This document shows, one piece after another, positions 6,625 to 33,324 of a stretch of DNA of 34,193 nucleotides. A program made the position numbers and the translations under genes. The notes under the pieces were generated by a model that saw only the letters and a program-made list of their open reading frames with translations, did not search any database and had not been told where the DNA came from. How positions within the stretch are numbered: position 1 is the first letter of the stretch; every line of letters starts with the position of its first letter. The stretch spans positions 1 to 34,193 of the forward strand of contig CADBIO010000023.1 of assembly GCA_902794835.1 (NCBI GenBank), in the 5' to 3' direction. Origin of the DNA: an uncultured Erysipelotrichaceae bacterium (lineage in GTDB: Bacteria > Bacillota_I > Bacilli_A > RFN20 > CAG-826).

Positions 6625-6628
6625 AGAT

Positions 6629-9201: not shown

Positions 9202-9204
9202 AAC

Positions 9205-11004: not shown

Positions 11005-11016
11005 CAAGGAGGAAGA

Positions 11017-13017
11017 ATGATGAAAAAACTATTTAACCGATTTTTGATGCTGAGTACGATTACGTTTTTGTCCGCCTGTAATGGAGCGGGAGGAGGAACA
11101 CAGTCCTCTGAGGAATCAGACAGCGTCGCCTCAAACACATCGGAAGAAATTAATCCTAATATCACCGATCAAGATTCGTTGAATTACGCCTTCAGCGGAG
11201 TTTATACCAATGGCGAAGTCAAAGACGCCGCGAATGGATTCAATTCTGTTTCTGATATTCGTTCGATGAAGGCGTTTAATACGGGCAAATATGTCGGTCG
11301 TTTTACTTCTACCTCGAACAGAGAAGATGTGAAACTAGAACTTTATAACGATCACGCGATGCGTTTTGTGAATGTTTCTAATGGTTATGTGTTCTCGCTT
11401 CCATTTAATGAAGTTGCAGTGGATTACAGCATCGCCAAACAACGCACGACCATGACCTTTGGGGATTCCATCTTAAACGTCTCTTTTGAATCCGGAAACC
11501 CATACACGTCCCTCTCCACTCCATGGTATACCTATGGCGAAGAATGGCTCATGCGTTACCTCTTAAGAGATGAATTCATTGGCAAAAACGGTTTGCAACG
11601 TACTGTTCCTTGCAAATATAGCTTTACTCCATCCAACCCATTCGGCGACCTTGAATTCAAAGACGGGTATGACGTGTATTTCTTTGGTGTCAAGATTGCT
11701 GGGGACGACAATAATCAGATTGAAAGACCTTATTACAATATTGGCATCGTCCGTGTGAAAAGCGATCCAAAGAACTTCTGCCTCTTTGTCATGAAATCCA
11801 AGACAGAGCAAAGCAAATTGATGGAAGACATCGTTACTAGCTATTCCCGTATCACCTCCAAAGGAACCGCGCGTAACTATTTCCATTCTCATGCGGCCAA
11901 AGAATGTGAATATTGGGATGAAGACACGAAAGCTTTATTCAAAAAGTTAACCACGACCGAATATGTCAACTGGGGCGTCTTCTCTTATTCGATGCCAGGC
12001 GAAGAAAACGCGATGGAACCAGGGCATGGAAATTATGATTCTTATTATGAATGGTCCAAGACAGTTCGCGATGACATTCAGCAGAAGTGGAACCACAATT
12101 TTGAAATCTACCCAACTTATAACCATTTAATCACCCGTTTCCCAATCCAAATGGCAACCGCTTTAGCTGGTGGCACAGGGACCGATGGCAAACCAGTTTT
12201 GCAATTTACCCTTCAATTCACCACCAACAACAACATCGTTGCTGACAATATCACCCCGATGTTTGACATCATGCGTGGCAAACATGACGCAAGATTCCGT
12301 CAATTCGCCAAAGACATGAAAGCCTATGGCAAACCCATCTTGATCCGTTTGAATAACGAAATGAACACGGACTGGACTTCTTATTGCGGCATGATGACCT
12401 TGCTTGATCCAGATATCTTCGTGATGACTTGGAGAAGGCTTTATGACATCTGTGTCGAAGAAGGCTGCACCAACCTCATCTGGATTTGGAACCCAATTTC
12501 CGTCAGTGCTCCATATTCTTCTTGGGGCGAAGACCTTTGCTACTTCCCAGGAATTGACTATGTTCAATTACTCGGTGGAACGGCTTATGAATTCAACAAC
12601 TATGCCAAAGAACAATCTGCTTCTAGCATCAAATCCTTCAAGAGTCTCTATACTGACTTGTATAAGAAGAACAGCCGTACTTTCGATACGGAATGGAAAT
12701 TGATTATTTCTGAATTTGCCTGCGGATCTGGCGGTGAAACGACCGGGGAGCTTGGCAGAAATAGAGATACTCAAGCTCAATGGGTCAAAGATATGTGGAG
12801 CGAAATCAACGCTAAAGTTCAAGCGGAATACGTCAAACAAATCCGTGGAGCCGTCTGGTTTAACGCCAACGACTATTCTGGCAACAAGATCATGAACCGT
12901 CTCCAAATCGTCAGCCGTCCAACCACGCCAAGCGAGGATTACAGTGACCTTTCTGCGACCATCGAAGCCTTTAGACAGGGCTTTGCCGATCAAGATGCCA
13001 GATTAGGCAATAAATAA
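11017..13017 (+). CDS. GH26-like glycoside hydrolase lipoprotein (beta-mannanase-type)
   Basis: A 666-residue lipoprotein (LSAC, Cys21; AGGAGG six bases upstream). An alternative start at 11020 drops one Met. After a Ser/Glu-rich linker, residues about 45-290 form a beta-rich domain I do not recognise, perhaps substrate-binding. The catalytic barrel follows from about 310. LIRLNNEMNTDW holds the likely acid/base Glu448 and LIISEFACG holds the likely nucleophile Glu566, the arrangement of GH26 (RPxHExN and xxEFG motifs). The usual HE is NE here, a deviation that may alter activity or specificity. It should act outside the membrane on polymer before import. Calling it a mannanase is a family-level guess; other GH26 members act on mixed-linkage glucan or xylan. 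Confidence 0.82.
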   Translation: MMKKLFNRFLMLSTITFLSACNGAGGGTQSSEESDSVASNTSEEINPNITDQDSLNYAFSGVYTNGEVKDAANGFNSVSDIRSMKAFNTGKYVGRFTSTSNREDVKLELYNDHAMRFVNVSNGYVFSLPFNEVAVDYSIAKQRTTMTFGDSILNVSFESGNPYTSLSTPWYTYGEEWLMRYLLRDEFIGKNGLQRTVPCKYSFTPSNPFGDLEFKDGYDVYFFGVKIAGDDNNQIERPYYNIGIVRVKSDPKNFCLFVMKSKTEQSKLMEDIVTSYSRITSKGTARNYFHSHAAKECEYWDEDTKALFKKLTTTEYVNWGVFSYSMPGEENAMEPGHGNYDSYYEWSKTVRDDIQQKWNHNFEIYPTYNHLITRFPIQMATALAGGTGTDGKPVLQFTLQFTTNNNIVADNITPMFDIMRGKHDARFRQFAKDMKAYGKPILIRLNNEMNTDWTSYCGMMTLLDPDIFVMTWRRLYDICVEEGCTNLIWIWNPISVSAPYSSWGEDLCYFPGIDYVQLLGGTAYEFNNYAKEQSASSIKSFKSLYTDLYKKNSRTFDTEWKLIISEFACGSGGETTGELGRNRDTQAQWVKDMWSEINAKVQAEYVKQIRGAVWFNANDYSGNKIMNRLQIVSRPTTPSEDYSDLSATIEAFRQGFADQDARLGNK

Positions 13018-14228: not shown

Positions 14229-15623
14229 ATGAAAACGCCAAAACATCGCCTTTTGCTGCTTGTTTTAAGCACGCTCCTTCTATCTTCTTGCGCTGGCAAT
14301 AACAACAACGAGTCACCGACAAGTGAAGAAGTGCCATCCATTAGCCAAGAAACAACTTCTGAAGAAACGGTCTCTCCACGTTTTAAAGCCGATTTTGCCT
14401 TCAGCAAATTCAAAGATGGCGGTACCGAGATTTCAGAGACGATTGTCGATGGTTTGACGCACTATACCCACACGATGACCAAAGAGAACGACAACAAAGT
14501 TCAAGTGCATTCTTTGGAAGTAGACCTTTCGAAGGTGGCCATTGATGCTGGCACGGCAAAAAACGCCTCAATCAAATTCAATAACACCAAGAACGTCCCT
14601 TATCAATCTGCCTTGGATATGGAAGAGAAGACAGGGAAGACCGTCTATGCTTCGTTAAATGCCGATTTCTTTGGCAGTCAAGTCGTCAACGCTTTCGTCA
14701 AAGACGGATATGTAGTTAAAAGTTCTCATAACGATAACGGGAATTATGATTACACCAATTCTAGTTCAGACGTTCCGGCTTCCTATCCAATGCTTTTTGG
14801 CATTAAAAATGGAGTGGCGCAGGTCGCTCCAATTCTTTCCAATGATGGCAAGGATCCAAAAGAGGCCGCAAATAAAAAACGTTATATTCAGGCGTCTTTG
14901 AATTATTCCATCAAATTAGGATCTCGTTCGATTGAGACAAATAACAACATCCGTTTGTCTTCGGAAGCCATCCGTATCGCCGCGAACGATTCTTATTTTG
15001 ATTTGGATATTTCCAAAGGATTGAACCGCGCCTCGGTTACGGCTGCTGAATCCGTCACGGCGGTGACAAAATTGCCTGCCCCAGCGACAGACCACATTTA
15101 TCTCATTTTCGGGAACCAAGATAGTGCAGGCCTTTCTTTTGCTGGAAAGATTGGCGTCGGCAACACCCTATCCATCACAGTTCATTCTCCAGATGGAATT
15201 TGGGACGGCGCAGAAACGATTCTTGGCTGTCGTCAAGAAATCATTAGAGACAACGAAATCGTATCCACGGTATCGTTAGAAAACACGAATGGCTGTCAGA
15301 ATGTGGAAGTTCCTAGAAGCGCCGTAGGCGTGCGAGAAGACGGAACGGTTGTCATTTATGCCGTCGAATCCCTTTATTATGGAAAAAAGAGCACCTCGGA
15401 AGAAGATCCTCATGGTGTTTCTTTGCCTGAGCTTGCCGAATACATGTCTTATAACAATATTCTCAATGGAGCAAATTTCGATGGCGGGGGATCGACTCAA
15501 ATGGTGCTGAAAAAGGCACGTGACGCCACTCCTAAAGTGGTTGTCCGCTCCAGCGACACTGGTTCTTCGGAGCCCTTAAACACCCGAGCCGTGATGAACG
15601 CCATCTTAGTTAGAAGCAAATAA
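14229..15623 (+). CDS. lipoprotein with phosphodiester glycosidase (NAGPA/DUF2233-type) domain
   Basis: A 464-residue lipoprotein (LSSC, Cys21) with a Ser/Thr/Glu-rich linker to about residue 50. The rest resembles the phosphodiester-glycosidase domain found in the mammalian uncovering enzyme NAGPA and many bacterial proteins. ASLNADFF (about 140) matches the conserved NxxFF strand, and NFDGGGSTQM (416-425) is the family's hallmark DGGGS motif, followed by RAVMNAILV at the C-terminus. The known reaction removes a sugar (GlcNAc in NAGPA) from a sugar-1-phosphate diester. It starts three bases after the epimerase stop. Next to a GDPD enzyme it implies a substrate with phosphodiester-linked sugars; that link is inferred from context. 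Confidence 0.88.
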   Translation: MKTPKHRLLLLVLSTLLLSSCAGNNNNESPTSEEVPSISQETTSEETVSPRFKADFAFSKFKDGGTEISETIVDGLTHYTHTMTKENDNKVQVHSLEVDLSKVAIDAGTAKNASIKFNNTKNVPYQSALDMEEKTGKTVYASLNADFFGSQVVNAFVKDGYVVKSSHNDNGNYDYTNSSSDVPASYPMLFGIKNGVAQVAPILSNDGKDPKEAANKKRYIQASLNYSIKLGSRSIETNNNIRLSSEAIRIAANDSYFDLDISKGLNRASVTAAESVTAVTKLPAPATDHIYLIFGNQDSAGLSFAGKIGVGNTLSITVHSPDGIWDGAETILGCRQEIIRDNEIVSTVSLENTNGCQNVEVPRSAVGVREDGTVVIYAVESLYYGKKSTSEEDPHGVSLPELAEYMSYNNILNGANFDGGGSTQMVLKKARDATPKVVVRSSDTGSSEPLNTRAVMNAILVRSK

Positions 15624-15626
15624 CGA

Positions 15627-16716
15627 ATGGAAATCAATCAAGCAGATCATAACATGGCAATCAAAGACGAGCCTGAACAATCGGGGATCGTCTATTACGA
15701 CGCCAAAGACAGCGCTCTTTTCGGTCTCTATGGAATCGACGATAAAAAAGAGAATGGGTATCCTCGTTTTAATGCCAAAGAAAGAGAATTGATCTCTAAG
15801 GTATCTAAAGACGTGGAATTTCTTTCCTACCATTCCGCGGGAATTCAACTGAAATTTGAGACAGATTCCTCGCAGATCTATTTCAAAGCAACCAACCAAA
15901 AGCCTTCGGATATGGACAATCTTTCTAACATCGCCCAATCGGGGATTGCTCTTTATTCTTTTGATGAAAAAGAGAATTGTTATTTCCTCCAAGGGGTGAC
16001 GCGCTTCTCTCCTAAAGCATCTTCTTACAATGTGCCGATGTTAAATTTCCCTCAAAGCCCTCGAAAAAATAGGAAATATGTTGCCTATCTTCCATCCTAT
16101 ATGGGGGTGGTCTCTTTGGAAGTTGGGCTTGAAAAGGGTGCGAAGGTAAAACCTGTCGGTTTCTCCCCAAAGAATTGGAATTTATGGCACCAGCATCACG
16201 CAAGGATGTGCAACTTCACAGCCAGGAGAAAATTATACGAATATGATTTCTCGATCCTTGGATCTCGAAGTCTTGAATTTCGGTTTCTCTGGCAGTGCCA
16301 TGATGGAACCAGAAACCGCCACCATTCTTAGCCAGCGAAATCTCGATCTTCTTCTTATCGATGCCGAACCGAATGCAGGAATGGATTGGAAATTAAAAGA
16401 ACGGTTAGAGCCGTTTCTTGATATCTATTTTGAAAAATGCCCTAAAACTCCGGTGATCTTAGCGTCAAGAACCTACTTAGGAATGGACTTTTATGAGCAA
16501 GAAGATGTTATTGAAAGGCGGGAGTTTTACAGGGGATTTTTGAAAAAAGAATGCGAAAAATATGCGGAAAAAGGATATCGCATTTCTTTTATTGACGGAT
16601 TAAAAATCGTGCCAATCGATAAGGCTGAATTTTCCATTGATGGGCTTCACCCAGATTCCTATGCCTTAGCATTAATTGCGGAAGCCTACATAAAAAAGAT
16701 AAAGGAGTTTTTATGA
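15627..16716 (+). pseudogene. SGNH/GDSL-type esterase, frameshifted
   Basis: Two reading frames together make one SGNH hydrolase of about 362 residues. The first (from 15627) gives an N-terminal beta-sandwich of about 175 residues like the GxDLY-type domain of these esterases (LFGLYGIDD). The second carries the catalytic part: GIYGTSITQGC with the Ser codon at 16192-16194, NFGFSGSAMM, and the C-terminal DGLH with Asp (16639) and His (16648). The join needs removal of one base, most simply from the CCCC run at 16165-16168, giving ...GFSQRIGIYGTS. As written translation runs out of frame to 16331 and loses the active site. The enzyme would remove acyl esters from sugars, preparing substrate for the other hydrolases. 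It has no signal peptide. The start has no clear ribosome site, three bases after the previous stop. Confidence 0.85.
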
Positions 16717-20216: not shown

Positions 20217-21056
20217 ATGTCCTTATTTCACCCAAATTTTGCGGCAAAAGATTCTCAGCCTCTTCCAAAATCCAGAGGAAGCCAAATTTTCTTTTTGCTC
20301 AAAAATCACTTTTTGGTGCTTTTCTTTTCCTCTTTAACCTATTTTGTCTTCACGATCCCTTTGCTGTTATTGCTATTAAGCTTCCATTTTCAATACACGT
20401 CTTTGCTACAATCCGAAAATCCAGACGCGAATTCCTTGTTTATTCTTTTATTAATCGCAGGCTCATTATTTGCCATTGCTTTAACTATCGTGGGGATTGG
20501 CTCTGCTGGAATGAATGGGGTAGTAGCTAAATTAATGATCGATAATGATGCGGCATATAAAGATTTTTGGATGGCGATAAAAGAACATTGGCTCCGCTTC
20601 CTGTTCTATTACCTAATCTTAGGCATTTTTGTTTTCTTAGTCTTTGCGACTTATGGGGTTTATTTCTATCGCGAATTCAATGCGGCCATGAAATTGATCT
20701 CTTTGATTATCGCATGTCTCTTTTTGTTTCTTTATTGTCTTGGCAAACCTTATTTTCTTTTGGAATGTTTCTATTTCGAAAATGGGTTCTTCTCATCCAT
20801 TAAAGCATCGATTTTCTTTGGCCTTGGAGGCCTTTTCCTGAATGTGGCTTTGTTAATTGCTTCCAACGGTCTTTATCTTGCTATGCTATTCAGTCCCATC
20901 ATCGGGATTTCTATTGAAATGACGTTAGAAATCCTTTTGGGTGGGGCATTGACTTCTCTTTTGAACCTTGAATTTGGAATGATGCGTCTGGAAAAAACAG
21001 TCGGAATAGAAACGTTAGGTTCTCTTTACCGAAAAGGCTTAGGCCCGGAACGTTAG
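20217..21056 (+). CDS. polytopic membrane protein, DUF624/YesL-like
   Basis: A 279-residue hydrophobic protein with about six membrane segments (roughly 30-60, 75-100, 128-155, 158-180, 200-225, 228-255). The loop AGMNGVVAKLMIDNDAAYKDFWMAIKEHW resembles the DUF624/YesL pattern, in which a short acidic loop with a DFxxAxK motif follows the second segment; the match is by eye. YesL-like proteins commonly accompany sugar-uptake operons but their role is unsettled. I chose ATG 20217, one base after the ribokinase stop, over longer in-frame starts inside ribokinase. Its TAG overlaps the stop of the convergent gene by 4 bases. Confidence 0.7.
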   Translation: MSLFHPNFAAKDSQPLPKSRGSQIFFLLKNHFLVLFFSSLTYFVFTIPLLLLLLSFHFQYTSLLQSENPDANSLFILLLIAGSLFAIALTIVGIGSAGMNGVVAKLMIDNDAAYKDFWMAIKEHWLRFLFYYLILGIFVFLVFATYGVYFYREFNAAMKLISLIIACLFLFLYCLGKPYFLLECFYFENGFFSSIKASIFFGLGGLFLNVALLIASNGLYLAMLFSPIIGISIEMTLEILLGGALTSLLNLEFGMMRLEKTVGIETLGSLYRKGLGPER

Positions 21057-22264
21057 TTGACTTTTTCTTGATAAGTCGTTAATGAACCGGTTCCGCCCGC
21101 GGCTTTTTGATAGGCATATGCGCTCTTTTTCGGGGCAGCTAGTGTTTTATTCTCCCCTGCGACCCCATGGTTATTAGGATCGGTGAATAGACCAAAAGTC
21201 TTCTCCGCGGTTGAGCCCCAGCTGGAAGAAAGAACATCAAACATCCGGAAATAATGAAGCGATTCCACGTAAGGGAGTTCTTTTAAGGTTTCGAAAAGGA
21301 GAGGAATGTAATCGGCTTGAACTTGAACAGAAACATTTTCCTCAGAGAAACCGAATTCTGTCATAAAGACCTTCTTGTCCTTTTGCTCGTTTTGTTTGAT
21401 GACGGCATAGATGTCATTATTCAGCTTTTTGAAAGCTTCTTTCCTGAAGTTTGTGACATAAGGATGCCAACAAGCAACTTGGAAAAAGTCATCGGGATAA
21501 GTGGACCAGAAATCACCAGAATCGATATTGTCATAAATATATTGCAAGAAGGTTTCTGCCGAAGAGGTGATTAATCCACCCATGACGGTAATGGCTTTTG
21601 GGTTCGCTTCATGAATTCCCCGGGAAGCATAGAACATCATATCGGTGTAAATATCTGCTTTTTGCCGCAAGGTGAATGTTCCTCCGGAAAGTTTCCCGAA
21701 GAAAACGTCATTATTGTCTTCGTTGTCGATTTCCCAATAAGTGATTTCCGGGAATTGGAGGACTAAATTTTTCCAGGTGCGTTCATAATCTTCCAGCCAT
21801 TTCATATATTCGCTTCCTTCTGTAAGGTCGCGAGCTGGTTTGGCGGTGGTGGATTTTGAATTGACGTACCCCGTGGCATGGAAATTCGAATGATTCATGC
21901 CGATCATTTGCATTCCTCTTCGATCCCAATCTTCCACAATCTTTCTAGCTAGGGCAAGACCGTTTTCATCGTAGGTGTCAGGATTTTTCATAATCCAATT
22001 GCAATGGAGCCAGACCCTCACGGATTTCGCGCCTAAAGCCTCAATCAAATCGTGGGTGTCTTGCCAGGAAGTTCCATTCCAGTTATGCTCACTCCAGGAA
22101 AGGTCGGTCATGCCATAAAGATAAGATTGATCGACAAAGGAATTGATCGGGTCATAGTTTGGACCATAATCACGGGAAGGAATTGAAGACGATGATTCCC
22201 TAGACGAGCATGCCGTCAATAAAATGGCCAGGCCTAAGGCCGCTTGCTTCATGTTTTTCATCAT
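21053..22264 (-). CDS. clan-A glycoside hydrolase lipoprotein (GH5/GH39-like)
   Basis: A 403-residue lipoprotein (LTAC, Cys19) with a TIM-barrel hydrolase. The acid/base motif is TYWEIDNEDN with Glu182 and the nucleophile motif is FMTEFGFS with Glu303, both at the ends of barrel strands 4 and 7 as in clan GH-A. VRVWLHCNW (strand 2) and ACWHPYV (strand 6) also fit. The family within the clan is uncertain; GH5 or GH39-like are the best guesses. It acts outside the membrane on polymers or glycoconjugates. The start is chosen at ATG 22264, which overlaps the binding-protein TGA (ATGA); a longer frame up to 22318 would spoil the signal peptide. It is the last gene of the operon. Confidence 0.82.
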   Translation of the reverse strand: MMKNMKQAALGLAILLTACSSRESSSSIPSRDYGPNYDPINSFVDQSYLYGMTDLSWSEHNWNGTSWQDTHDLIEALGAKSVRVWLHCNWIMKNPDTYDENGLALARKIVEDWDRRGMQMIGMNHSNFHATGYVNSKSTTAKPARDLTEGSEYMKWLEDYERTWKNLVLQFPEITYWEIDNEDNNDVFFGKLSGGTFTLRQKADIYTDMMFYASRGIHEANPKAITVMGGLITSSAETFLQYIYDNIDSGDFWSTYPDDFFQVACWHPYVTNFRKEAFKKLNNDIYAVIKQNEQKDKKVFMTEFGFSEENVSVQVQADYIPLLFETLKELPYVESLHYFRMFDVLSSSWGSTAEKTFGLFTDPNNHGVAGENKTLAAPKKSAYAYQKAAGGTGSLTTYQEKVN

Positions 22265-23901
22265 TTGATCCCCGCCGCGGCTGCGACTTCTTTGATCATC
22301 GCCTGAATCGAACTCCATCCATAGGTGGATTGCTCAATCCTTTCTAGCAATTGAGAATAGTAGTCATCAACCGATGTTCCTTGATTGACCATCGCCTGAA
22401 TCGCATATTGTTCTGACGCATCTTCGACCTTTTTCATTTTGGAACGGAATGATGGATAGAAACCGGTGATGTTGGTTAGATTGGACCGGCACAGAGTGTT
22501 TTTATCTAATGCTTCTTGAATCAAATCGGCATAATTCTTATCCAAAGCGTTTGGATCGATTCTCACTTGGAAATTCGTCGAAGTTTCATCCCAATCAACA
22601 TCATTGGAGAAAGATGCGCCCATTTTGTAATAGCCAGTAGGCTGGAAGATTCCGTCGATTTTAGACCCGTTGAAGATATCTCCCATTTCTGCGGAACGGT
22701 TGTCTAAATTAGGGACAACGTTTCCTTCGCTGTCATAATCCCAATGAGTGCCCTTCAATCCATAGCAACGAGTTTTGCTTCCTTCCGGTGAATACAAATA
22801 GTTGAAAAGACGCAACGCCGCTTCTGGATGAGCGCAATCTTTGGAAATGGAATATCCACCCCAATATCCGCCCCAATCAGAGAATCCACCCGCGCCTTCT
22901 TCGCCTAGGTTTTTGGTGCCGATCGGAGCTTTGCCAAACACGATTTTTGCTTTTGGATTGGCTCGGTAAAGATTATCCGCGATATAAGTAACGTGGGCTT
23001 CTGCGTTCGTGATGAGAATTCCCACCTGTCCATCATAGAATTTGTTACGATCTTGATAATTGCTGTTGGTAGGGAATTGTTTATCCACGTAGCCTGCGCT
23101 AATCATGCTTCTCATCCAATTCAGATAATTTTTGAATTTCGGATTGATAAACATATAAGTAGGGGTGCCATCTTCTAACAATTCATAATCTGGCTTGACC
23201 CCAAAGGCGTGATAGAGAGGATTTTGAAAGAACGCGTCATTCGATGGAGATAGACCGAACGTGTCATTTTTTCCGTTCCCGTCAGGGTCTTTTTCGGTGA
23301 AGTCTTTTAAAACTTCTTGGAATTCTTCAATGGTTTCAGGGACTTTTGCCGTGCCATCTTCGTTGACATGACCTGTGGCGATCAGCCAATCGGCACGATA
23401 ATAAATGCCCCAACCAGAATTAGAGGTGAAATAAGGGATCAACGTATGGGCCCCATCACCGAAAGTGAGGTTTTTGAATTGATCGCTTTTTAGAATCTTT
23501 TCGAGGTAGGGGTAAGCTCCTGGTTCCTCCGCAAGCAACTCGTCGATATTCCAGACAACATCTTGGGTCACCCAATTGTTGTAAGCGTTGCCAGCGGCAT
23601 TTGGGACTGCGAAAATCACATCTGGTACATCGCCGGTATTGATCATCGGGTTTAAGACGGAGTAGTAATCGCTATTGTGATTGGCGCCTTCAATTTGAAG
23701 GGAGACACCTGATTTTTCTTCGATTTCCTGCCAGACGGCATCTTTTTTGATGCCATCATATTCTTGGCCACCGTTCATGAAAATTCGAAGCACGTCCCGG
23801 CCGTGTTCGTCTTGCTTTCCTCCTTCTCCGCCTCCACATGAGGCTAAAGATAATAAGGTTACAGTCAGTAACACGCCTTTTCTAAAAGTGTTCTTTTTCA
23901 T
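22261..23901 (-). CDS. extracellular solute-binding lipoprotein (LplA/YtcQ type)
   Basis: A 546-residue family-1 binding lipoprotein (LASC, Cys22) followed by a Gly/Glu-rich linker. The features include PDVIFAVPNAAGNAYNNW (about 108-125), GWGIYYRADWL (about 169-179) and FGLSPSNDAF (about 217-226), typical of LplA-like proteins that bind oligosaccharides. A strong ribosome site TAGGAGGT lies just upstream on the - strand. It would deliver substrate to the permeases encoded upstream; the nucleoside hydrolase gene sits between them. Unlike the counterpart in region A it is intact. Confidence 0.92.
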   Translation of the reverse strand: MKKNTFRKGVLLTVTLLSLASCGGGEGGKQDEHGRDVLRIFMNGGQEYDGIKKDAVWQEIEEKSGVSLQIEGANHNSDYYSVLNPMINTGDVPDVIFAVPNAAGNAYNNWVTQDVVWNIDELLAEEPGAYPYLEKILKSDQFKNLTFGDGAHTLIPYFTSNSGWGIYYRADWLIATGHVNEDGTAKVPETIEEFQEVLKDFTEKDPDGNGKNDTFGLSPSNDAFFQNPLYHAFGVKPDYELLEDGTPTYMFINPKFKNYLNWMRSMISAGYVDKQFPTNSNYQDRNKFYDGQVGILITNAEAHVTYIADNLYRANPKAKIVFGKAPIGTKNLGEEGAGGFSDWGGYWGGYSISKDCAHPEAALRLFNYLYSPEGSKTRCYGLKGTHWDYDSEGNVVPNLDNRSAEMGDIFNGSKIDGIFQPTGYYKMGASFSNDVDWDETSTNFQVRIDPNALDKNYADLIQEALDKNTLCRSNLTNITGFYPSFRSKMKKVEDASEQYAIQAMVNQGTSVDDYYSQLLERIEQSTYGWSSIQAMIKEVAAAAGIK

Positions 23902-23913
23902 TTTTTCTACCTC

Positions 23914-24810
23914 CTAGTCACAAATTTTATCGAGTATGTTCTTCACGATTTTTTCTTTATTGAATGATTGTGCTATTTTAACCTCGCTCCAAGCCTGATT
24001 GTTGGTGATGGATGTCTCGCTAGGTGATTCGATACCTACGCTGACACGATGAGTCACAAAAGTCAAACTTTCTGGGTGGAATATCGAATAAGCGGCCAAA
24101 GGATCATGAAGAACCATCGTTCTATGAGAGAAATTTTTCCACGCTTGGACGCACCAGGCCCGATATTGATCTAATTCATCGCCTTTAGGATCAAGGAGCC
24201 GAGATTCTTCTTCTGGGGTTAATGCAGTTTCATTGGTTACATCTAATCCAATCGCGGTGATATCGTGAATGTTCGAGAAACAGATTTTTGCCGCCTCTTC
24301 ATCGCATTCGATATTCCATTCGCTTCCTTTTGAGAAGAACCTTCCTCCCATCATAATTAGATGCACGTCCTTCACGGATTCCGATTTTTTCAACGCTAAA
24401 GCTACATTCGTCATCGGGCCAATCGTTAACAAGGTGAGGTCGTTTTTGTATTTCTTCGCTTGTTCGGCAATAAAATTCACGCCACCCATTCCTAGGGAGC
24501 CCTCATGATCGTTGATAGGAGAATATTGTCTTTCTTCTAAGGTTTTCTCATATTGGTCAAAGGTAACATCAACCCCTTGGAAGTGGTGTCCATAAAGAGG
24601 CTTTCCATACCCGGCATAGACAGGAACATCATCACGATGAGCCAAGTGAAGTGCTTTCTTCAATTGTCTGGCCCGTAAATTCGTATTTTGATAGGCAGAG
24701 ACGACACCCAAAAGATTGACGTCTTCTTTCAAAACGAGCAAGAGAGCAAGAACGTCATCGATATCGTCCCCGATATCAGTATCGATAATTAAATTGATTT
24801 GTTTCTTCAT
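23914..24810 (-). CDS. inosine-uridine-type nucleoside hydrolase
   Basis: A 298-residue enzyme without signal peptide. The N-terminal DTDIGDDIDDVLALL is the calcium-binding aspartate cluster of the nucleoside hydrolase superfamily, and TIGPMTNVALAL (about 159-170) and VLHDPLAAYSIF (about 249-260, with the second metal-binding Asp) complete the signature. The reaction hydrolyses the N-glycosidic bond of ribonucleosides to ribose and base; which base cannot be told. I chose ATG 24810, since the 68 codons in front lie in the permease region and lack coding character. It starts two bases after the permease stop, inside a sugar-transport operon, an unusual place for a salvage enzyme. Confidence 0.9.
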   Translation of the reverse strand: MKKQINLIIDTDIGDDIDDVLALLLVLKEDVNLLGVVSAYQNTNLRARQLKKALHLAHRDDVPVYAGYGKPLYGHHFQGVDVTFDQYEKTLEERQYSPINDHEGSLGMGGVNFIAEQAKKYKNDLTLLTIGPMTNVALALKKSESVKDVHLIMMGGRFFSKGSEWNIECDEEAAKICFSNIHDITAIGLDVTNETALTPEEESRLLDPKGDELDQYRAWCVQAWKNFSHRTMVLHDPLAAYSIFHPESLTFVTHRVSVGIESPSETSITNNQAWSEVKIAQSFNKEKIVKNILDKICD

Positions 24811-24812
24811 AA

Positions 24813-25715
24813 TTATCCTTTCACAGCTCCTAACATCGTTCCTTTCACGAAATATTTTTGAATAAATGGATAGATCAAGATGATCGGCACGATGGAGATG
24901 ATGATGGCTGCCATTTTCACAGATTCGGACATGGCCATAATGGATGGATCTACCACGCCTTGGCCTGGCGTAGCCGTTACCAGAATGTTTCTTAAGAACT
25001 GCTGGATTAACCAAAGATCCTTATTATTTTGCATATAGAGAATGCCAGTCATCCAATCGTTCCATTTGCTGACACCCGCCCATAAGGAGATGGTGGCAAT
25101 AATTGGACCAGAAAGAGGCATGACGATTTGGAAAACAATTCTAAATTCTGATGCCCCATCTACCCTTGCGGATTCAAATACTTCATTAGGGATTGAAGAG
25201 ATGAAATTTTTGACGATGATGACATAGAAAGGATTGATTAGTCCAACGAAAATATAGACCAGCCAGTTATTAAATAAACCTAATTGTTTGATCATCAAAT
25301 AATAAGGAATCAATCCGCCGGAGAATAACATCGAGATCAATAACAACACCAACACAAATTTTCGGCCCTTTAATTCTCTCCTTGTCAAAGGATAGGCCGA
25401 GATGACCGTCAAAGTAGTGGAAAGAAGGACATAAATGGCAACCGTCCCTACACTTAATAGGAACGTTCTTCCTAATCCATTGTTATTAAGAATAATGTTG
25501 TAAGATTCGAAAGAAATCGTTTGGACAGACTTGCCATCGATGACTTCTTGGCTTTGCAAAGAAGAGACCAAAACATAGATAAATGGATAAAGACACAGTA
25601 CAAAAAGAATGGCAAAAATGAGATAGTTCACGATGTTAAAAGCAATCTCTCCTCGTGATTTTCCGAAGAGACGTCTAGCGATATTTTCACGATGATATTT
25701 CTGATGAATCACCAT
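24813..25715 (-). CDS. ABC transporter permease, LplC/UgpE type (CUT1)
   Basis: A 300-residue membrane subunit with about six hydrophobic segments. The EAA loop is visible as FESARVDGASEFRIVFQIVM followed by PLSGPI, and the C-terminus KYFVKGTMLGAVKG is typical of this subtype. The gene overlaps the preceding permease by 7 bases and is followed two bases later by the nucleoside hydrolase. It forms a heterodimer with the LplB-type partner. No ATPase is encoded nearby. Confidence 0.93.
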   Translation of the reverse strand: MVIHQKYHRENIARRLFGKSRGEIAFNIVNYLIFAILFVLCLYPFIYVLVSSLQSQEVIDGKSVQTISFESYNIILNNNGLGRTFLLSVGTVAIYVLLSTTLTVISAYPLTRRELKGRKFVLVLLLISMLFSGGLIPYYLMIKQLGLFNNWLVYIFVGLINPFYVIIVKNFISSIPNEVFESARVDGASEFRIVFQIVMPLSGPIIATISLWAGVSKWNDWMTGILYMQNNKDLWLIQQFLRNILVTATPGQGVVDPSIMAMSESVKMAAIIISIVPIILIYPFIQKYFVKGTMLGAVKG

Positions 25716-26683
25716 AGCCCATCTCCTCCAATCTTTTTGATGATTTTGTTTGCTAGCAAGACCAAAATCAGGGATACAACAGAATCAAATAATCCCATCG
25801 CCGTTGCCACATCATAGGAACCATCCGTAATGCCGATACGGAATAGGTAGGTGTCAATGATATCGCCCATTCCATAGACCGTCTCGTTATAGAGGTTGTA
25901 AATTTGATCAAATCCTCCATAAATTACCCCAGAAGCCGTGAGAATCAAATTCACGGAGATGGCGGGGACTAGTCCTGGCAAGGTCACATGAATGATTCTT
26001 TGGAGACGGTTTGCCCCATCAATCTCTGCTGCTTCGTAGAGTTCTGGCGGAATTGCGGCCAATGCAGCGAAATAAATAATCGTAGACCACCCGGCCTCTT
26101 TCCATATGTCGGAGAAGATGACCATCCCTAAAAACAAATGGTCGTTGGTAAAGAAACCGACCTCTTCACCAAAAATGGAAGAAAGGAAATTTTGGAATAC
26201 CGACTTTGATGCCGTCATGGATGTCAAAATGCCCGAGAGAACGACCCAAGAAATAAAGTGGGGGAGGTAAGCGACAATTTGGAAACCCCGACTGATTTTT
26301 CGTGAACGCATCTCATTGAGAAGAATCGTAAGGATAATCGGGACAGGGAAACCGAATAAGATTCTTAATCCCGAAATGCGTAAGGTGTTCATCAGTTTGG
26401 TAGGGAAATCATCATCCATGAACAAGGTCTTGAAGTGTTTGAAAAGATCCAATTGGCCATCGGTAGTAGCCCATGGAGAGCCCCATATCCCTAATCTCAA
26501 CCTCCAATCTTTAAAGGCAATTTGTAAACCCAACATTGGATAATAAGACGAGATCAAAAGATACGCGACCATCGGCAGAAGCAAGGCATATAAAGGCCAC
26601 ATTTGCCTCCAATATGCCTTTCTTCGTTCCTTTTTAGGGTTGCGTTGCGGCAGTGGTTTGATAGAACTAGCTTCCGCGATCAT
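25709..26683 (-). CDS. ABC transporter permease, LplB/UgpA type (CUT1)
   Basis: A 324-residue membrane subunit with a cytoplasmic N-terminus of about 30 residues and about six hydrophobic segments (first LYALLLPMVAYLLISSYYPM). The EAA loop reads YEAAEIDGANRLQRIIHVTL followed by PGL. Its ATG overlaps the stop of the upstream surface-protein gene by 4 bases (ATGA at 26680-26683), so it is translationally coupled to it. It pairs with the next permease. Confidence 0.93.
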   Translation of the reverse strand: MIAEASSIKPLPQRNPKKERRKAYWRQMWPLYALLLPMVAYLLISSYYPMLGLQIAFKDWRLRLGIWGSPWATTDGQLDLFKHFKTLFMDDDFPTKLMNTLRISGLRILFGFPVPIILTILLNEMRSRKISRGFQIVAYLPHFISWVVLSGILTSMTASKSVFQNFLSSIFGEEVGFFTNDHLFLGMVIFSDIWKEAGWSTIIYFAALAAIPPELYEAAEIDGANRLQRIIHVTLPGLVPAISVNLILTASGVIYGGFDQIYNLYNETVYGMGDIIDTYLFRIGITDGSYDVATAMGLFDSVVSLILVLLANKIIKKIGGDGLW

Positions 26684-29070
26684 CGATCCTCCTTATGTTT
26701 TCTAGCAATGGCAATAAGACCGGCGCCAAGTAAAGCAACCGCCATCGTAGCGACAGAGACTACTAATTCGCCACGGCAACCAGTGGATGGTGCTTTTTTC
26801 TCGGTGCGGTTCACGACCGCTTTAAAAGTAGATAAAGCGGAATTGCAAGCGCTCTTGGTTGTCGCTTTGTTGATGGCATCAATTGCATCTTCTTTGGCTT
26901 TGGTTATCTTTTCCCAATCTTCGGAAGTGTATTCGTTTTGATTCAAAGATTGATAAATTTCATTAACCGCGGCAATCGTTTTTTCACGGTAAGCAATTAA
27001 TTCTTCGGCTTCTTCTTTCAAAGTCTTAACATCATCCATTTTAGCGATGGCGTTGCGATAAATTTCATCGATTTCTTCCTTTGAAGAGGCTTCATCAATG
27101 GCAGTTTTTGCCTCATCGACGATATTTAAAATTTGTTGGTAGTTGTCCAACGAATAATTTTCTTCGCCGAGCTCGACGATATGGTCATCAAGGGCTTCCT
27201 TTTTCTCGGCTGCATATTGATTCAAAATCTTGACGGCTTCAAAATCAGGAACATCGTTTTCCTCAAAAGCGGTGGAATCCAATTCATAATGAGGGGCGAA
27301 ATTAACGGAATACCATTCTCCATCCAAAGTATAGTAGTCCATCAATAAAGTTTGCCCCGCTTTCAAAGAAACAGTGATACCATATGCGTTTTCTGGCGAA
27401 TTATCGTATATGACGATCGTTTTTAATAAAGCCATTGTGCCCTCTTCATCGATAGCATAATAACGGATGGCTGAATTAGTGCTGGACCATGCGCTTTGCC
27501 AGATGGCAGTATGAGTTATCGTGATGGAAACATCTGCTTTGACAGTCATTTTAATCATCGCATCCAACCCTTGGTCGCATTGAATTTGCCAACGTTGGAA
27601 GCCAGCCTTTTTCGTGGCAGAGTCCCAAATCGAATCGTTTTCTTTTCCTTCTCCGTCGCCTTCATGATAGGTGCATGGATAACTCATCGTAGGAGTTCCT
27701 ACTAAGTATTGGTAAGACATCAATTGGGAATCGACTACACCATAGTTATGGTTAATTTCCTCAGTGACACCATCCCATAAGTAGAGGGAATCGCTGGCGA
27801 TAACCATCTCTTTCTCATATTCATTGACGTCAAATGAGGAGGAATCGGTGACGAAGGTAGGATAGATTTCCAATAAACGTTGGTCGGCAATCGTCGATCC
27901 GAATGTCCATAAGGCGGTGTCGCCTGCCTTCAAATGGATTGAACCGCCATATTCATCCGCGTCACGTGGAAGGGAAGAGATTTCACGATTCCATTGTTCA
28001 AAAACTTGATCATTATTCTTCAATGAAAGACTGAAGAATTGCCCATATTGATCGATCCAAGAATTGTCTGCCGTTAATGCTGGGTGGGATATGGTGAGCT
28101 TTAAATCTGTTTTGGCAGTAAAAGAGAAGACAACCCAAGAAGAAGATGTCGTTTTGATTCTCCAATCGGTTACCGCGGCCATATCTTCGCCTTCCCAAAC
28201 TCCAGCGTTGGATAACAAACAACTTTCTTTTTCGGCATCATAGGTATAGGAATTGAATTTATCGTAAGTCCCGTTTGGCTTCCCTTGATAAATGTTTGCT
28301 TCTGCCTCTTTAAGGGAAACATCTTTTCCTTCCCCGATCGCCAATTCTTTCACGAGTTGTTTCATGGTGACCGTTGTTTCTTGACTTAAATCGGCTGGTT
28401 CTGGAGCTGGTGTGTTTCCACCTTCTTCCCCTCCCTCGATTTGAGTGAAGGTGAAAGTAGGTAAATTGATGATATTTCGATGGTCGCCTGTCCATTGAAA
28501 ACGAAGCTCATAATATAGCGTTTCGCCTTTATTTAGGCTATACGTGCCTGAATATTCTGCGGCCGTAGTATCCGATTTTAATTCTTTAAGGTATACCGAA
28601 GAGACGGTTCCATCGACCGTTTCGCGGTAGACGGAAAGCGTGACTGCATCAACCCAGTCGCCTCCTGTTACGGTTTTTGTAATATCGACAGAGATGTTCT
28701 CCTTGGCTGTGACTTTAAAAATGGCTCCGTCATTGTTAAGCGTGAACACTTTCCAGTGCGGGTTGATGTAGCAATCGTCGCCTTCCGCGCCTAAAGTTCC
28801 GGCCCAACCATTTCCATCGTAGGTATAAGTGGTGAAAGCGTTGATTGATCCTCCTCCTACATATCCGTGTAGGACTTGGGTGTTAACTAATTTGTACCCA
28901 GAATAAGCACCGCCATTTTGTTGGGCGGTGAAAATCACCATATCGGTGGCTGACATGGATTCACTGATGGCGCCATCTGCTTTAACTCCCATGATGGAAG
29001 TTTGGCCATTCATTGCGACTAATCCAAAAAGCGTCACAATGGGTAATGCTAGTACGTTGCTTTTCTTCAT
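26680..29070 (-). CDS. surface protein with three copies of an unrecognised beta domain and FIVAR-like helical repeats
   Basis: A 796-residue exported, membrane-anchored protein with strong ribosome site AAAGGAG. Residues 1-32 are a signal peptide. Domain 1 (about 41-212) is close to the two domains of the next surface protein; domains 2 (about 231-410) and 3 (about 415-600) look like diverged copies, each keeping an F/MKVxAKxDxxxxIxH strand and a KAGxT strand. A helical region (about 607-755) has two FIVAR-like repeats of about 70 residues. The C-terminus has APSTGC (760-765), a hydrophobic stretch (about 769-789) and a KHKEDR tail, like a sorting signal but without canonical LPxTG. It probably displays glycan-binding modules next to the importer; binding is inference. 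Confidence 0.85.
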   Translation of the reverse strand: MKKSNVLALPIVTLFGLVAMNGQTSIMGVKADGAISESMSATDMVIFTAQQNGGAYSGYKLVNTQVLHGYVGGGSINAFTTYTYDGNGWAGTLGAEGDDCYINPHWKVFTLNNDGAIFKVTAKENISVDITKTVTGGDWVDAVTLSVYRETVDGTVSSVYLKELKSDTTAAEYSGTYSLNKGETLYYELRFQWTGDHRNIINLPTFTFTQIEGGEEGGNTPAPEPADLSQETTVTMKQLVKELAIGEGKDVSLKEAEANIYQGKPNGTYDKFNSYTYDAEKESCLLSNAGVWEGEDMAAVTDWRIKTTSSSWVVFSFTAKTDLKLTISHPALTADNSWIDQYGQFFSLSLKNNDQVFEQWNREISSLPRDADEYGGSIHLKAGDTALWTFGSTIADQRLLEIYPTFVTDSSSFDVNEYEKEMVIASDSLYLWDGVTEEINHNYGVVDSQLMSYQYLVGTPTMSYPCTYHEGDGEGKENDSIWDSATKKAGFQRWQIQCDQGLDAMIKMTVKADVSITITHTAIWQSAWSSTNSAIRYYAIDEEGTMALLKTIVIYDNSPENAYGITVSLKAGQTLLMDYYTLDGEWYSVNFAPHYELDSTAFEENDVPDFEAVKILNQYAAEKKEALDDHIVELGEENYSLDNYQQILNIVDEAKTAIDEASSKEEIDEIYRNAIAKMDDVKTLKEEAEELIAYREKTIAAVNEIYQSLNQNEYTSEDWEKITKAKEDAIDAINKATTKSACNSALSTFKAVVNRTEKKAPSTGCRGELVVSVATMAVALLGAGLIAIARKHKEDR

Positions 29071-29101
29071 TCTTCGCTCCTTTAAAGTTTATTTACCGTT
29101 T

Positions 29102-30640
29102 TTATTGTTTTTTGTGTTTGCGATAAAAGAACAAGGACCCAATTCCAACAAAGGAGGCGATTGTGGTGATAGCAATGATCCACATCGGTTTTTCCTTTGT
29201 TTTCGTTAGATTGTTCTGAACCCATGTCTTATTGCTTGCTCCATAAGTGTTATCGTAAGGATTGGAGTCGCTTTGATTGACTGCCCAGGCTAGATAACGT
29301 TCTCTTGCGGAAACGATTCTGCTGTTGGTGCTCGTTTGGAAAGTAGATTTCTCTGCGCTGCTTAGTGAGTTATAGCGTTTTTTGGCTTCCCAATATTTGG
29401 TTTGACACTGATTTGGCTTATCACTTTCTAAAATAAAGGAAGATAAAGTGCCGACTGTGTTTTCTTTCTCCGTGAAGGTGAAAGATGGAAGCCCATCTAG
29501 ATTTCTCCAGCTTGTCCATTCAAATTTGAATTCCCAATAAAAGATTTCGCCAGCATAAAGATCAGCATTTCCAACAAAATCGCTAGTAGGGCTGGATGCA
29601 TTTACTTTATTAGATGAAATCGTGCTTAATTTTCCGTCTAAATCATATTTATAAATAGAGACAAAGGCATCGTCTGGCCAACCTCCCACCGAAGCAAGGT
29701 CCACGCTGACGTTGACATAACTTTTGGCAGTAACCTTAAAAATGAAACCATCATTTGCTTGAGACCAGAGCTTGTAATGATTGGCATAACAATCATCTGC
29801 ATCTTGTGCCCCAAGAGTTGCTTTCCAAGTTCCAGCATCCGAACTGAAGGTGGTAAAAGCGTTTATGGTTCCATTCGTCACATTTCCATGGACCGCTTGA
29901 TAATCAACAAGAGAGGCATCCGTATAACTTCCGCCATTGTTAAGTGCAGTTCTAACGATGATATCTTGGCCTGATGCCGTTACGGTTTCTAACGATGGGG
30001 CGGGGTGCTCGATTTCCGTGAAGGTGAAACTTGGCAAGGTTTGGGTATTTCTATGACTCCCATCCCATTCAAAACGGAATTCCCAATAAAACGTTTCGCA
30101 GGATGCAATATCAAAGCTACCGGCGAAATCTTCCGTGGTAGAGGAATCGGTTAAGGCTGTTGTCTTCAAAGTGCTGATTGTACCGTCAGCAGCCTCTTTA
30201 TACATAGTGAGATTAGCACCATCAACCCAGCCACTGACAGAACTTTGACTGATAGAAATATTAATGTCTGCTTTAGCGACGACCTTAAAAATAACACCGT
30301 CGTTTTTCAGAGAATAAAAACTCCAGTGATTTCCGTATGCACTATCAGCTGAAGTCCCTAAACTTCCGGTCCATTCATTGGCATTACTTTCGTAAGTGGT
30401 GAACGCATTGATTGATTTATTTGCCACATTTCCGTGAACCACTTGATAATCAACCAACTTACCTGAATAGGCTTTACCGCCATTTAACGCAGTACGAACC
30501 ACCATATCTTGGGCAGAAGCTGATTCCACATCGCCAAGGGTCGCCTTAGCTGATAAATAGGGTTTGGATGAGAGAGCGACCACAGACGTTCCAACGACTG
30601 CCGCGGCCGATAATAAGGAAAATAAATATTCTTTCTTCAT
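29102..30640 (-). CDS. surface protein with two tandem copies of the same unrecognised beta domain
   Basis: A 512-residue exported protein and the first gene of the operon, with a GGGGGG ribosome site. After a signal peptide (about 1-33), copies at about 41-211 and 222-392 are clearly alike: QDMVVRTALNGG / QDIIVRTALNNGG, then VVHGNV / AVHGNV, INAFTT in both, NDGVIFKVVAK / NDGFIFKVTAK, FYWEFRFEW / FYWEFKFEW and LPSFTFTE in both. A short helical module follows (about 398-455: CQTKYWEAKKRYNSLS, then ARERYLAWA), then a membrane segment (about 485-505) and a basic tail. No LPxTG is present. I know no family for the domain; a carbohydrate-binding role is suggested by position only. It lies 31 bases upstream of the second surface protein. 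Confidence 0.87.
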   Translation of the reverse strand: MKKEYLFSLLSAAAVVGTSVVALSSKPYLSAKATLGDVESASAQDMVVRTALNGGKAYSGKLVDYQVVHGNVANKSINAFTTYESNANEWTGSLGTSADSAYGNHWSFYSLKNDGVIFKVVAKADINISISQSSVSGWVDGANLTMYKEAADGTISTLKTTALTDSSTTEDFAGSFDIASCETFYWEFRFEWDGSHRNTQTLPSFTFTEIEHPAPSLETVTASGQDIIVRTALNNGGSYTDASLVDYQAVHGNVTNGTINAFTTFSSDAGTWKATLGAQDADDCYANHYKLWSQANDGFIFKVTAKSYVNVSVDLASVGGWPDDAFVSIYKYDLDGKLSTISSNKVNASSPTSDFVGNADLYAGEIFYWEFKFEWTSWRNLDGLPSFTFTEKENTVGTLSSFILESDKPNQCQTKYWEAKKRYNSLSSAEKSTFQTSTNSRIVSARERYLAWAVNQSDSNPYDNTYGASNKTWVQNNLTKTKEKPMWIIAITTIASFVGIGSLFFYRKHKKQ

Positions 30641-30674: not shown

Positions 30675-30713
30675 GGTAACCGCTTACAATAAAAAGAGAT
30701 GAAACACTCACAA
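30675..30713 (-). promoter_or_regulatory. promoter with CcpA-type cre site for the surface-protein/importer operon
   Basis: Reading the - strand, TGTAAGCGGTTACC (30688-30675) matches the catabolite-responsive element TGWAAGCGNTWWCA at 13 of 14 positions. A plausible promoter is TTGTGA (30713-30708), a 16-base spacer and TATTGT (30691-30686), so the cre covers the -10 end and the early transcript; CcpA binding there would repress the operon when preferred sugars are present. The match is by eye. Confidence 0.7.
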
Positions 30714-30843: not shown

Positions 30844-31626
30844 ATGTTTGATTGCGACACTAAATTCATCGTCAGCCACAACCACGCTCGATCCTATTCG
30901 GTAAACGCCCACGAACACCCGTGTTATGAGATCGTTTATTACAAAAAAGGACGTGGAACGACCGTTATAGGCGGGAAAAAATATCATTTTGAAGATGATA
31001 CTTTTACGATTATTGAGCCTGGCCTTATGCATAGCGAGGTTGGAAGCGGACCTGTCGATTTGATTTATGTTGGTTTTATGATCAACAATGATTTTGTCCG
31101 TTTGCCAACCGGGTTATATAGCGGGAAAGATATCGATATTCTGGCAGACATGCTTCAGGCCCAGAAAGAGATGGACGAGCAAAAATCGTTTTACGATCGA
31201 ATGCTCAATAACATCACCGAACGGATTGTTGTCAAAATCAAAAGAAAACTTTCACAATCGGCGAATCACACTGACGATGTTTTTGAACGGGCAGAAGGGT
31301 ACATCAAGCAAAATTGCATGAAAAACATCCGAGTGACCGAACTAGCTAAGCTTTTTGGATATAACTACGATTATTTCCGGAACGCCTTTAAAGAAAAATA
31401 CGGCATTTCCATTAAAACTTACATTTCCAATCAACGATTGATCTACGCAGAAGATTTGCTGCGAAATTCCGATTGGAGCATTAAAAAGATTGCCGCCTCT
31501 TCTGGATATAATTCTTCCTCCCATTTCGGACTGGAATTCAAAAAGGCCGTTGGGATGACGCCCAAAGAATATCGTCGTCAGTCTGAATCGGGAGAAATTC
31601 ATAAAGAAGTGGCTGTTTTTAAATAA
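30844..31626 (+). CDS. AraC-family transcriptional regulator
   Basis: A 260-residue regulator. Residues about 10-90 form a cupin ligand-binding domain (HEHPCYEIVYYKKGRGTTV, then FTIIEPGLMHSE). Residues about 150-250 carry two helix-turn-helix motifs: VTELAKLFGYNYDYFRNAFKE and, near the end, KKIAASSGYNSSSHFGLEFK with the family's GMTPKEYR. It is divergent from the surface-protein/importer operon and precedes a hexosaminidase, so it probably activates one or both in response to a sugar ligand. The start is placed at 30844 because the cupin begins soon after. Confidence 0.93.
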   Translation: MFDCDTKFIVSHNHARSYSVNAHEHPCYEIVYYKKGRGTTVIGGKKYHFEDDTFTIIEPGLMHSEVGSGPVDLIYVGFMINNDFVRLPTGLYSGKDIDILADMLQAQKEMDEQKSFYDRMLNNITERIVVKIKRKLSQSANHTDDVFERAEGYIKQNCMKNIRVTELAKLFGYNYDYFRNAFKEKYGISIKTYISNQRLIYAEDLLRNSDWSIKKIAASSGYNSSSHFGLEFKKAVGMTPKEYRRQSESGEIHKEVAVFK

Positions 31627-31728: not shown

Positions 31729-33324
31729 ATGGAAAAGAAATCTTATTTTGCCGCGATGGTCGATTGTTCTCGTAATGGGGTCTTAAGCGTATCTTCTTTA
31801 AAACGTTTCATCGATGTTATTTCCTCTTTTGGCTATAACGCTTTGATGATTTACACCGAAGATACCTATGAGATTGAAGGGGAACCTTATTTCGGTTATT
31901 GCAGGGGAAGATACACCAAAGAGGAATTACAAGAGGTGGACCGCTATGGTTTAAGCAAAGGGGTGGAACTTATCCCTTGCATCCAAACCTTGGCTCATTT
32001 AGAAAATATTTTTCGCTGGGGCGTTTATGAAGATATCCATGACAACAAAGGCATTCTTCTCGCCGAAGAAGAGAAAACTTACGAGTTCATCCGCAAGATG
32101 ATCGCCACATGTCGTGAATGTTTCACCTCCAAACTCATCCACATCGGAATGGATGAAGCCATGACTTTGGGCTTGGGGAAATATTTGAAACTTCATGGCT
32201 ACGTTTCCAAATTAGAGATCATGAAGCGCCATCTTCCCCGCGTGACTGCGATTTGCGAGGAATACGGCTTCACTCCGATGATGTGGAGCGACATGTTCTA
32301 TCATAACAGTGACAAAAAGATGACTGTAGAAGATGCCAAAACCATCCCAAGCGATTTAAAAATGATTTATTGGGATTATTATCGCAACAAAGTTTCAGAC
32401 TATGAAAAAATCATCATCGAAAGAAAAGCCCTTCCTAATGAGATTTGGTTTGCCGGAGGCGCTTGGACGTGGTCTGGTTTCTCTCCTTTCAATCGGATGT
32501 CAATCAAACGCACCAAAGCGGCTTTGACTGCCTGCAAGAAACAAGGGGTGAATAATATCATTTTGACCCTTTGGGGAGATGATGGCAGAGAATGTTCCGT
32601 ATTCAGTGTCTTGCCAACCCTTTTCTATGCGAAGAAATTCTTTGATGGGGAAACAAATCTTGCCACCATCAAAAAACAATTTAACGAACTCACGGGTGAG
32701 TCTTTTGATGCCTTCCTGGCCATGGATTTGCTCAATGATCTAGGGGGTCCAAATGATCAGCCATACAACGTGGAGAAGTGGGCTCTTTATAACGACCCAT
32801 TAATTCGCATCTTAGATAATCACGTTGTCCCGGAAAAGAAAAAGGCCCTCCGTTTGGCATATCGCCGTTTATCGAAAGCCGCCAAGGAATCTCCAAATTA
32901 TGGATACATCTTCTCTTCTCAAGCCGATTTGGCCAAGTTGTTGTTGGTGAAATACGACTTGGGAGTCAGGACCCTTGCCGCCTATCGCCAAGGGAAAGAG
33001 GAGTTAAAAGCTTTGCTTCCTGAATATGACAAAGCCATCCGCCTAACCAAAAAATTTTATCTTTCCTTCCGTCGTTATTGGTACACGGACTATAAATTAA
33101 ATGGCATGGAGGTGCAGGATATCCGACTGGGGGGATTGATGACTCGTCTTTGGGATGTCAAAGAAATCCTTTCTTCCTATATTGCAGGAGAGCGTGATTC
33201 GATTGATGAATTAGAACATGAGGTCTTGGACTTTGCCGGTGAGAAAGACGCGGATGGCAAACCAATCAATCACAATTCGTGGGCGGACGCTCTAAGTGCC
33301 AATGTGCTCAGGATGATGATATAA
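31729..33324 (+). CDS. GH20-like beta-N-acetylhexosaminidase, cytoplasmic
   Basis: A 531-residue TIM-barrel hydrolase without signal peptide. The key motif LIHIGMDEAMTLG holds Asp142-Glu143, matching the catalytic DE pair of GH20 (HxGxDE), preceded by barrel strands FGYNALMIYTED (about 34-45) and LIPCIQTLAHLE (about 83-94), and followed by PMMWSDMFY (about 183-191). GH20 enzymes remove terminal GlcNAc or GalNAc using the substrate acetamido group, with Asp orienting it and Glu as acid. The C-terminal 200 residues are helical and unassigned. Location in the cytoplasm implies action on imported oligosaccharides. It follows the AraC gene on the same strand. Confidence 0.85.
   Translation: MEKKSYFAAMVDCSRNGVLSVSSLKRFIDVISSFGYNALMIYTEDTYEIEGEPYFGYCRGRYTKEELQEVDRYGLSKGVELIPCIQTLAHLENIFRWGVYEDIHDNKGILLAEEEKTYEFIRKMIATCRECFTSKLIHIGMDEAMTLGLGKYLKLHGYVSKLEIMKRHLPRVTAICEEYGFTPMMWSDMFYHNSDKKMTVEDAKTIPSDLKMIYWDYYRNKVSDYEKIIIERKALPNEIWFAGGAWTWSGFSPFNRMSIKRTKAALTACKKQGVNNIILTLWGDDGRECSVFSVLPTLFYAKKFFDGETNLATIKKQFNELTGESFDAFLAMDLLNDLGGPNDQPYNVEKWALYNDPLIRILDNHVVPEKKKALRLAYRRLSKAAKESPNYGYIFSSQADLAKLLLVKYDLGVRTLAAYRQGKEELKALLPEYDKAIRLTKKFYLSFRRYWYTDYKLNGMEVQDIRLGGLMTRLWDVKEILSSYIAGERDSIDELEHEVLDFAGEKDADGKPINHNSWADALSANVLRMMI

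Follow-up and report, generated by a model that had tools for sequence, protein, structure and literature searches.

The window analysed here is the whole 34,193-nt stretch of contig CADBIO010000023.1 (assembly GCA_902794835.1), from an uncultured Erysipelotrichaceae bacterium (GTDB lineage Bacteria; Bacillota_I; Bacilli_A; RFN20; CAG-826). It contains a minus-strand operon that opens with two genes for surface proteins, here called A and B, followed by lplB, lplC and the genes of a nucleoside hydrolase, a solute-binding protein (SBP) and a GH5-like lipoprotein, with an AraC gene divergent upstream. A and B were delimited by open reading frames and domain search. The genes are:

31729..33324, plus strand: GH20 / GH20C family hexosaminidase-like protein, possibly belonging to the locus
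30844..31626, plus strand: AraC-family regulator, divergent; its homologues are also divergent in loci L062, L077 and L079
29102..30640, minus strand: protein A, a surface protein of 512 aa with a signal segment, two domain copies, a short anchor module, a membrane helix and a KHKKQ tail
26680..29070, minus strand: protein B, a surface protein of 796 aa with a signal segment, three domain copies, a helical spacer, APSTGC, a membrane helix and a basic tail
25709..26683, minus strand: LplB-type permease, AlgM1 homologue, overlapping B by 4 nt; AGGAGG, a strong ribosome site, lies within the end of B
24813..25715, minus strand: LplC-type permease
23914..24810, minus strand: inosine-uridine-preferring nucleoside hydrolase family protein, DTDIGDDIDD motif intact
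22261..23901, minus strand: extracellular SBP, a relative of AlgQ and of SBP family 1
21053..22318, minus strand: GH5-like lipoprotein, a clan A glycosidase with a likely start at ~22264 and both candidate catalytic Glu conserved

Importers of the LplB/AlgM1 type take up large oligosaccharides. The operon combines an AlgM1-homologous permease (LplB, E 1e-74) with a family 1 SBP related to AlgQ1/AlgQ2 and to other binding proteins of that family, which points to an importer of this type. Searches of PDB sequences revealed no solved relative of the GH5-like protein, and none of its relatives was found among viral contigs. Scans for promoters and terminators gave results near chance, and a cre-like site at 30675-30688 was dropped because such sites were as numerous as expected by chance. 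A further LplB homologue, 34% identical, is encoded at 4676-5686 of the window, in another gene cluster that lacks the domain.

The initial annotation had read five copies of one beta domain in A and B. The domain is ~165-190 residues long, and its copies and their surroundings are arranged as follows:

29993..30526, minus strand: domain copy A1, A residues 39-216
29459..29992, minus strand: domain copy A2, A residues 217-394
29105..29485, minus strand: C-terminal anchor module of A, residues 386-512, common to many surface proteins of the bacterial family
28429..28962, minus strand: domain copy B1, B residues 37-214
27832..28386, minus strand: domain copy B2, B residues 229-413, diverged
27253..27831, minus strand: domain copy B3, B residues 414-606, diverged, aligning with the second domain of L062 and the last domain of L061
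26791..27246, minus strand: helical spacer of B, residues 609-760, aligning with the spacers of L061 and L062
26683..26790, minus strand: C-terminal anchor of B, with (K)APSTGC, a hydrophobic helix and RKHKEDR

A1, A2 and B1 are 47-53% identical to one another, and their pairs reach z 50-59 in local alignments against 300 shuffles. All pairs involving B2 or B3 gave z 6.8-11.5, with the real score reached by none of the 300 shuffles. Run against the own genome, a profile built from just A1, A2 and B1 recovered B3 (E 1.1e-6) and B2 (E 1.5e-5), as well as a sixth copy on a different contig (E 8.5e-5). Because the shuffle scores and the recovery of B2 and B3 by the profile agree, the claim of five copies holds, and so does its ranking of A1 and A2 as plainly homologous, B1 as close to them and B2 and B3 as diverged.

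Both proteins start with a signal-like segment and end in a hydrophobic segment and a basic tail. The membrane anchors first described were thus recovered in A and B, whereas the helical spacers said to precede them were recovered in part: a long spacer, with a sub-threshold resemblance to DUF1542, is present in B only, and A has instead the anchor module of ~125 residues. This module (QC.TK...F.TS.DYVI..ARERL.AWA, linker, membrane helix, KKKR) ends surface proteins in 51 of 146 genomes of the family (L005-L033) and has no match in Pfam or NCBIfam. In a check for LPXTG-like motifs, B showed APSTG-C followed by the helix and tail, A showed no such motif, and the relatives showed KGCGCG. The surface proteins of L062, L077, L085, L113, L115 and L143 carry a C-terminal Gly/Cys motif (of the KGCGCG, KGGC or KGCGS type), then a membrane helix and a basic tail. 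To judge from their sequences, these C-termini look like a lineage-specific anchoring signal of these Clostridia.

The domain was not recognised at first sight, and it indeed falls outside the families covered by our searches. Neither A nor B has a significant Pfam or NCBIfam match across it, and the 23 copies collected in this study, searched singly against the same databases, gave just isolated weak matches, in each case between a single copy and some unrelated family. Among PDB sequences, the domain profile found no chain at E 10. The AlphaFold model of A1, computed from 11 alignment rows, is a confident beta-sandwich (pLDDT 93.4, pTM 0.89) with some twelve strands and a single helix at the N-terminus. 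Structural comparison assigns it to the jelly-roll type, with Elapor1 as the top match (Z 8.9), followed by GITRL and the Vip3A C-terminal domain (Z 8.5), GlfT2 (7.8) and the Epf adhesin domain (7.5). Carbohydrate-binding modules (CBMs) also occur among the matches: a porphyran-binding CBM (Z 7.5), CBM22 and CBM61 (Z 6.7) and, via Foldseek, CBM6 and CBM32. They are tied with non-CBM proteins (TNF-like, GOLD and phage proteins), the scores lie mostly in the range of a common arrangement, and no match stands apart from jelly-roll folds generally. The viral structure library likewise returned generic matches only, to phage tail/fibre proteins. The jelly-roll sandwich is a common fold that also has roles unrelated to sugars. 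The model therefore supports a beta-sandwich for A1 and singles out no CBM or adhesin family among those matched, while kinship with a CBM family outside that list stays conceivable; its predicted architecture resembles that of CBM6, CBM22, CBM32, CBM61 and similar modules, but there is no sequence match to them, identity is ~10%, and Z values of 6.7-7.5 are in the common-arrangement range. B2 and B3 were modelled alone because an alignment of full-length B with L061 and L062 was unreliable in its middle region owing to the repeats. In the B3 half of the resulting model, the structural elements follow one another as in A1; since this model is of low confidence (pLDDT 55), it is the sequence profiles that support a common fold for the diverged copies.

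A scan of genome contigs with the domain only gave no match, and the GH5-like enzyme was therefore taken as bait. Scanning species genomes with it revealed a locus in Clostridia, L062, with matching gene order including the AraC gene, and domain searches around the L062 genome added the operons L077, L085, L113, L115 and L117. A domain search of the own family yielded L061, from a Bacilli bacterium of horse faeces. Hence L062 was located via the GH5-like gene alone, and L061, L077, L085, L113, L115 and L117 via the domain alone. Together with the window, these make eight loci, from Bacilli and Clostridia, in which the downstream gene is on the contig; L079, L092 and L114 are further loci cut by contig ends. 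A domain protein lies upstream of lplB in all eight and directly so in seven, including L061 where the two are joined; the exception is L113, where one GDPD surface gene stands in between. After lplB come lplC, usually the nucleoside hydrolase (7/8), the SBP and the GH5-like enzyme, and an AraC gene is often present. The coupling to permease genes suggested by the initial annotation thus recurs across genomes, once as a joined reading frame.

This joined frame of L061 encodes 1526 aa. Besides four recognisable copies of the domain it contains a helical spacer, a membrane helix and, after a short linker, the whole of LplB. Downstream of it are lplC, the nucleoside hydrolase, the SBP and the GH5-like enzyme. 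The predicted topology, with the domains outside, a membrane helix, a cytoplasmic linker and the permease, makes sense, while the frame is known from one metagenome assembly and an internal start is possible. Residues ~431-588 were considered as a fifth domain and rejected, as the iterated profile recognises just four.

The association extends to the permease itself. In a tree with other LplBs, the eight that are linked to the domain group into a single clade (support 92/97), and none of 500 shuffles was equally clustered. They are 52-59% identical across classes, versus 26-45% to three other LplB homologues of the own genome. In the reverse direction, GH5-like genes belonging to this subfamily (E <= 1e-80), located independently of the domain, were accompanied by the domain protein in every importer operon seen; the exception, L142, is a GH5-like gene standing alone, with no importer genes nearby.

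The domain also occurs in a second operon type. In L046, on contig 24 of the own genome, a lipoprotein (11419-12711) ends in the sixth copy and is found near another SBP/LplC/LplB set, a pectate-lyase-like protein and a glycoside phosphorylase-like gene, the last two labels being read from sequence with no profile match behind them. L086 is similar, combining such a lipoprotein with one C-terminal copy (144-2270) with an SBP, LplC and a lyase-like gene, and in L116 a lipoprotein of this kind (9020-10798) is encoded beside a lyase-like gene. Two arrangements thus connect the domain with this importer family. It is rare even among relatives, with a convincing match in 2 of 196 genomes of the own family, in the own genome only among a phylum sample of 392, and in 7 of 396 genomes of the order of L062, which implies that most LplBC importers work without it. 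Two further LplB homologues of the own genome indeed have no adjoining copy.

From these results we infer that A and B are displayed at the surface, bind a ligand and work with the importer: they are probably non-catalytic, membrane-tethered capture proteins of a Gram-positive polysaccharide-utilisation-type locus (gpPUL). In the mechanism we propose, 1) A and B would display repeated beta-sandwich binding domains outside the membrane, next to the LplB/LplC-type ABC importer; 2) together they would keep polymers or large oligosaccharides bound to the cell surface; 3) the GH5-like lipoprotein would trim the held polymer; 4) the SBP would hand fragments over to LplBC; and 5) the nucleoside hydrolase-family enzyme would process the product. 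Glycans, as the initial annotation suggested, are putative ligands: the jelly-roll fold is a common one, and no residue invariant across the copies marks a binding site. The number of domains per operon, from 2 to 5 or more, fits capture by avidity better than a fixed docking part.

Other readings of A and B have been considered. The domains could belong to an adhesin with which the bacterium attaches to other cells, plant fibre or host mucus; their proximity to the importer genes would then reflect no more than co-expression in one niche. A membrane-anchored helical stalk bearing repeated beta-sandwich domains is a common build among adhesins, and the Epf domain is among the structural matches; yet an adhesin would not be expected upstream of lplB in every one of the eight loci, joined to the permease in one reading frame, or tracking one LplB clade, and we regard this as unlikely. 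Somewhat less likely still is an accessory permease subunit whose extracellular part, in a place like that of the MalF P2 loop, docks the SBP or stabilises LplBC without binding substrate. The joined frame of L061 and the 4-nt overlap with lplB in the window are what such a subunit predicts, but a docking part should be more constant than these proteins with their variable domain number and long spacers, and the one-copy lipoprotein exists without a joined permease. Catalysis by the domain itself, as an esterase, a lyase or a phosphodiesterase-like enzyme attacking the substrate, is very improbable: several degradative enzymes are encoded in the operons and jelly-roll folds may be catalytic, but the 23 copies share no invariant column and no invariant polar residue, which argues against catalysis, one Gly being nearly invariant, and 3-5 strongly diverged tandem copies are unusual for enzymes.

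Capture at the surface is thus the reading that we compare with known systems. gpPULs bring together a regulator, a transporter and enzymes in one locus, and have been described as devoid of surface glycan-binding proteins (SGBPs), a role often filled by CBMs on the enzymes (PMC10318527). The A/B locus resembles them in that the AraC regulator, the ABC transporter (LplBC and SBP) and glycosidases, including the GH5-like enzyme, are co-located, in the window and in most relatives; it differs in having a nucleoside hydrolase and, ahead of the importer genes, a dedicated surface protein with repeated domains. In the proposed role, multi-domain and non-catalytic capture from a locus shared with an importer and glycosidases, A and B resemble the SusE/SusF-like SGBPs of Bacteroidota. 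However, the locus has a Gram-positive ABC importer and no SusC/SusD, the domain is not recognised by Pfam as that of SusE/F, and A and B are anchored by a membrane helix and are not lipoproteins. The permease and SBP are homologous to those of the AlgM1-AlgM2 and LplB-LplC importers with AlgQ-type binding proteins. To our knowledge AlgM1 has no extracellular multi-domain partner, whereas here such a protein is encoded upstream of LplB or joined to it. The open literature, within our incomplete coverage, yielded no description of an importer-linked repeated-domain surface protein. We therefore file the A/B locus as a gpPUL-type locus with an importer-linked surface protein from an undescribed domain family.

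If true, an importer-linked family of non-enzymatic surface proteins would fill a gap, as the sugar-utilisation loci of Gram-positive gut bacteria are described as lacking stand-alone SGBPs. More tentatively, some Gram-positive ABC importers may possess a surface subunit dedicated to capture and coupled to the permease, built from repeats of this new family and in the extreme case covalently linked to LplB; polymer capture and import would then be one machine, in bacteria described as devoid of SGBPs. The domain would offer a new family for carbohydrate-binding tests, and the LplB-joined frame would make the coupling of capture and import directly testable.

The accompanying enzymes give a hint of the substrate. 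In L061 the GH5-like enzyme carries a fused GDPD domain (9914-11803), L113 encodes a GDPD surface protein (5941-7896), and the last gene of the L117 operon (14807-16339) specifies a calcineurin-like phosphoesterase. Three of the eight operons thus include a phosphodiesterase or phosphoesterase, which together with the nucleoside hydrolase suggests a phosphate-bearing substrate, and our weak guess is a phosphate-containing glycan, e.g., a teichoic-acid-like polymer.

The more distant GH5-like loci L143 to L149 have no domain copy nearby. In L143, L145, L148 and L149, other surface-anchored proteins of 680-1005 residues, with no Pfam match, adjoin the GH5-like or importer genes; a surface protein may be a general pattern of such GH5-like loci.
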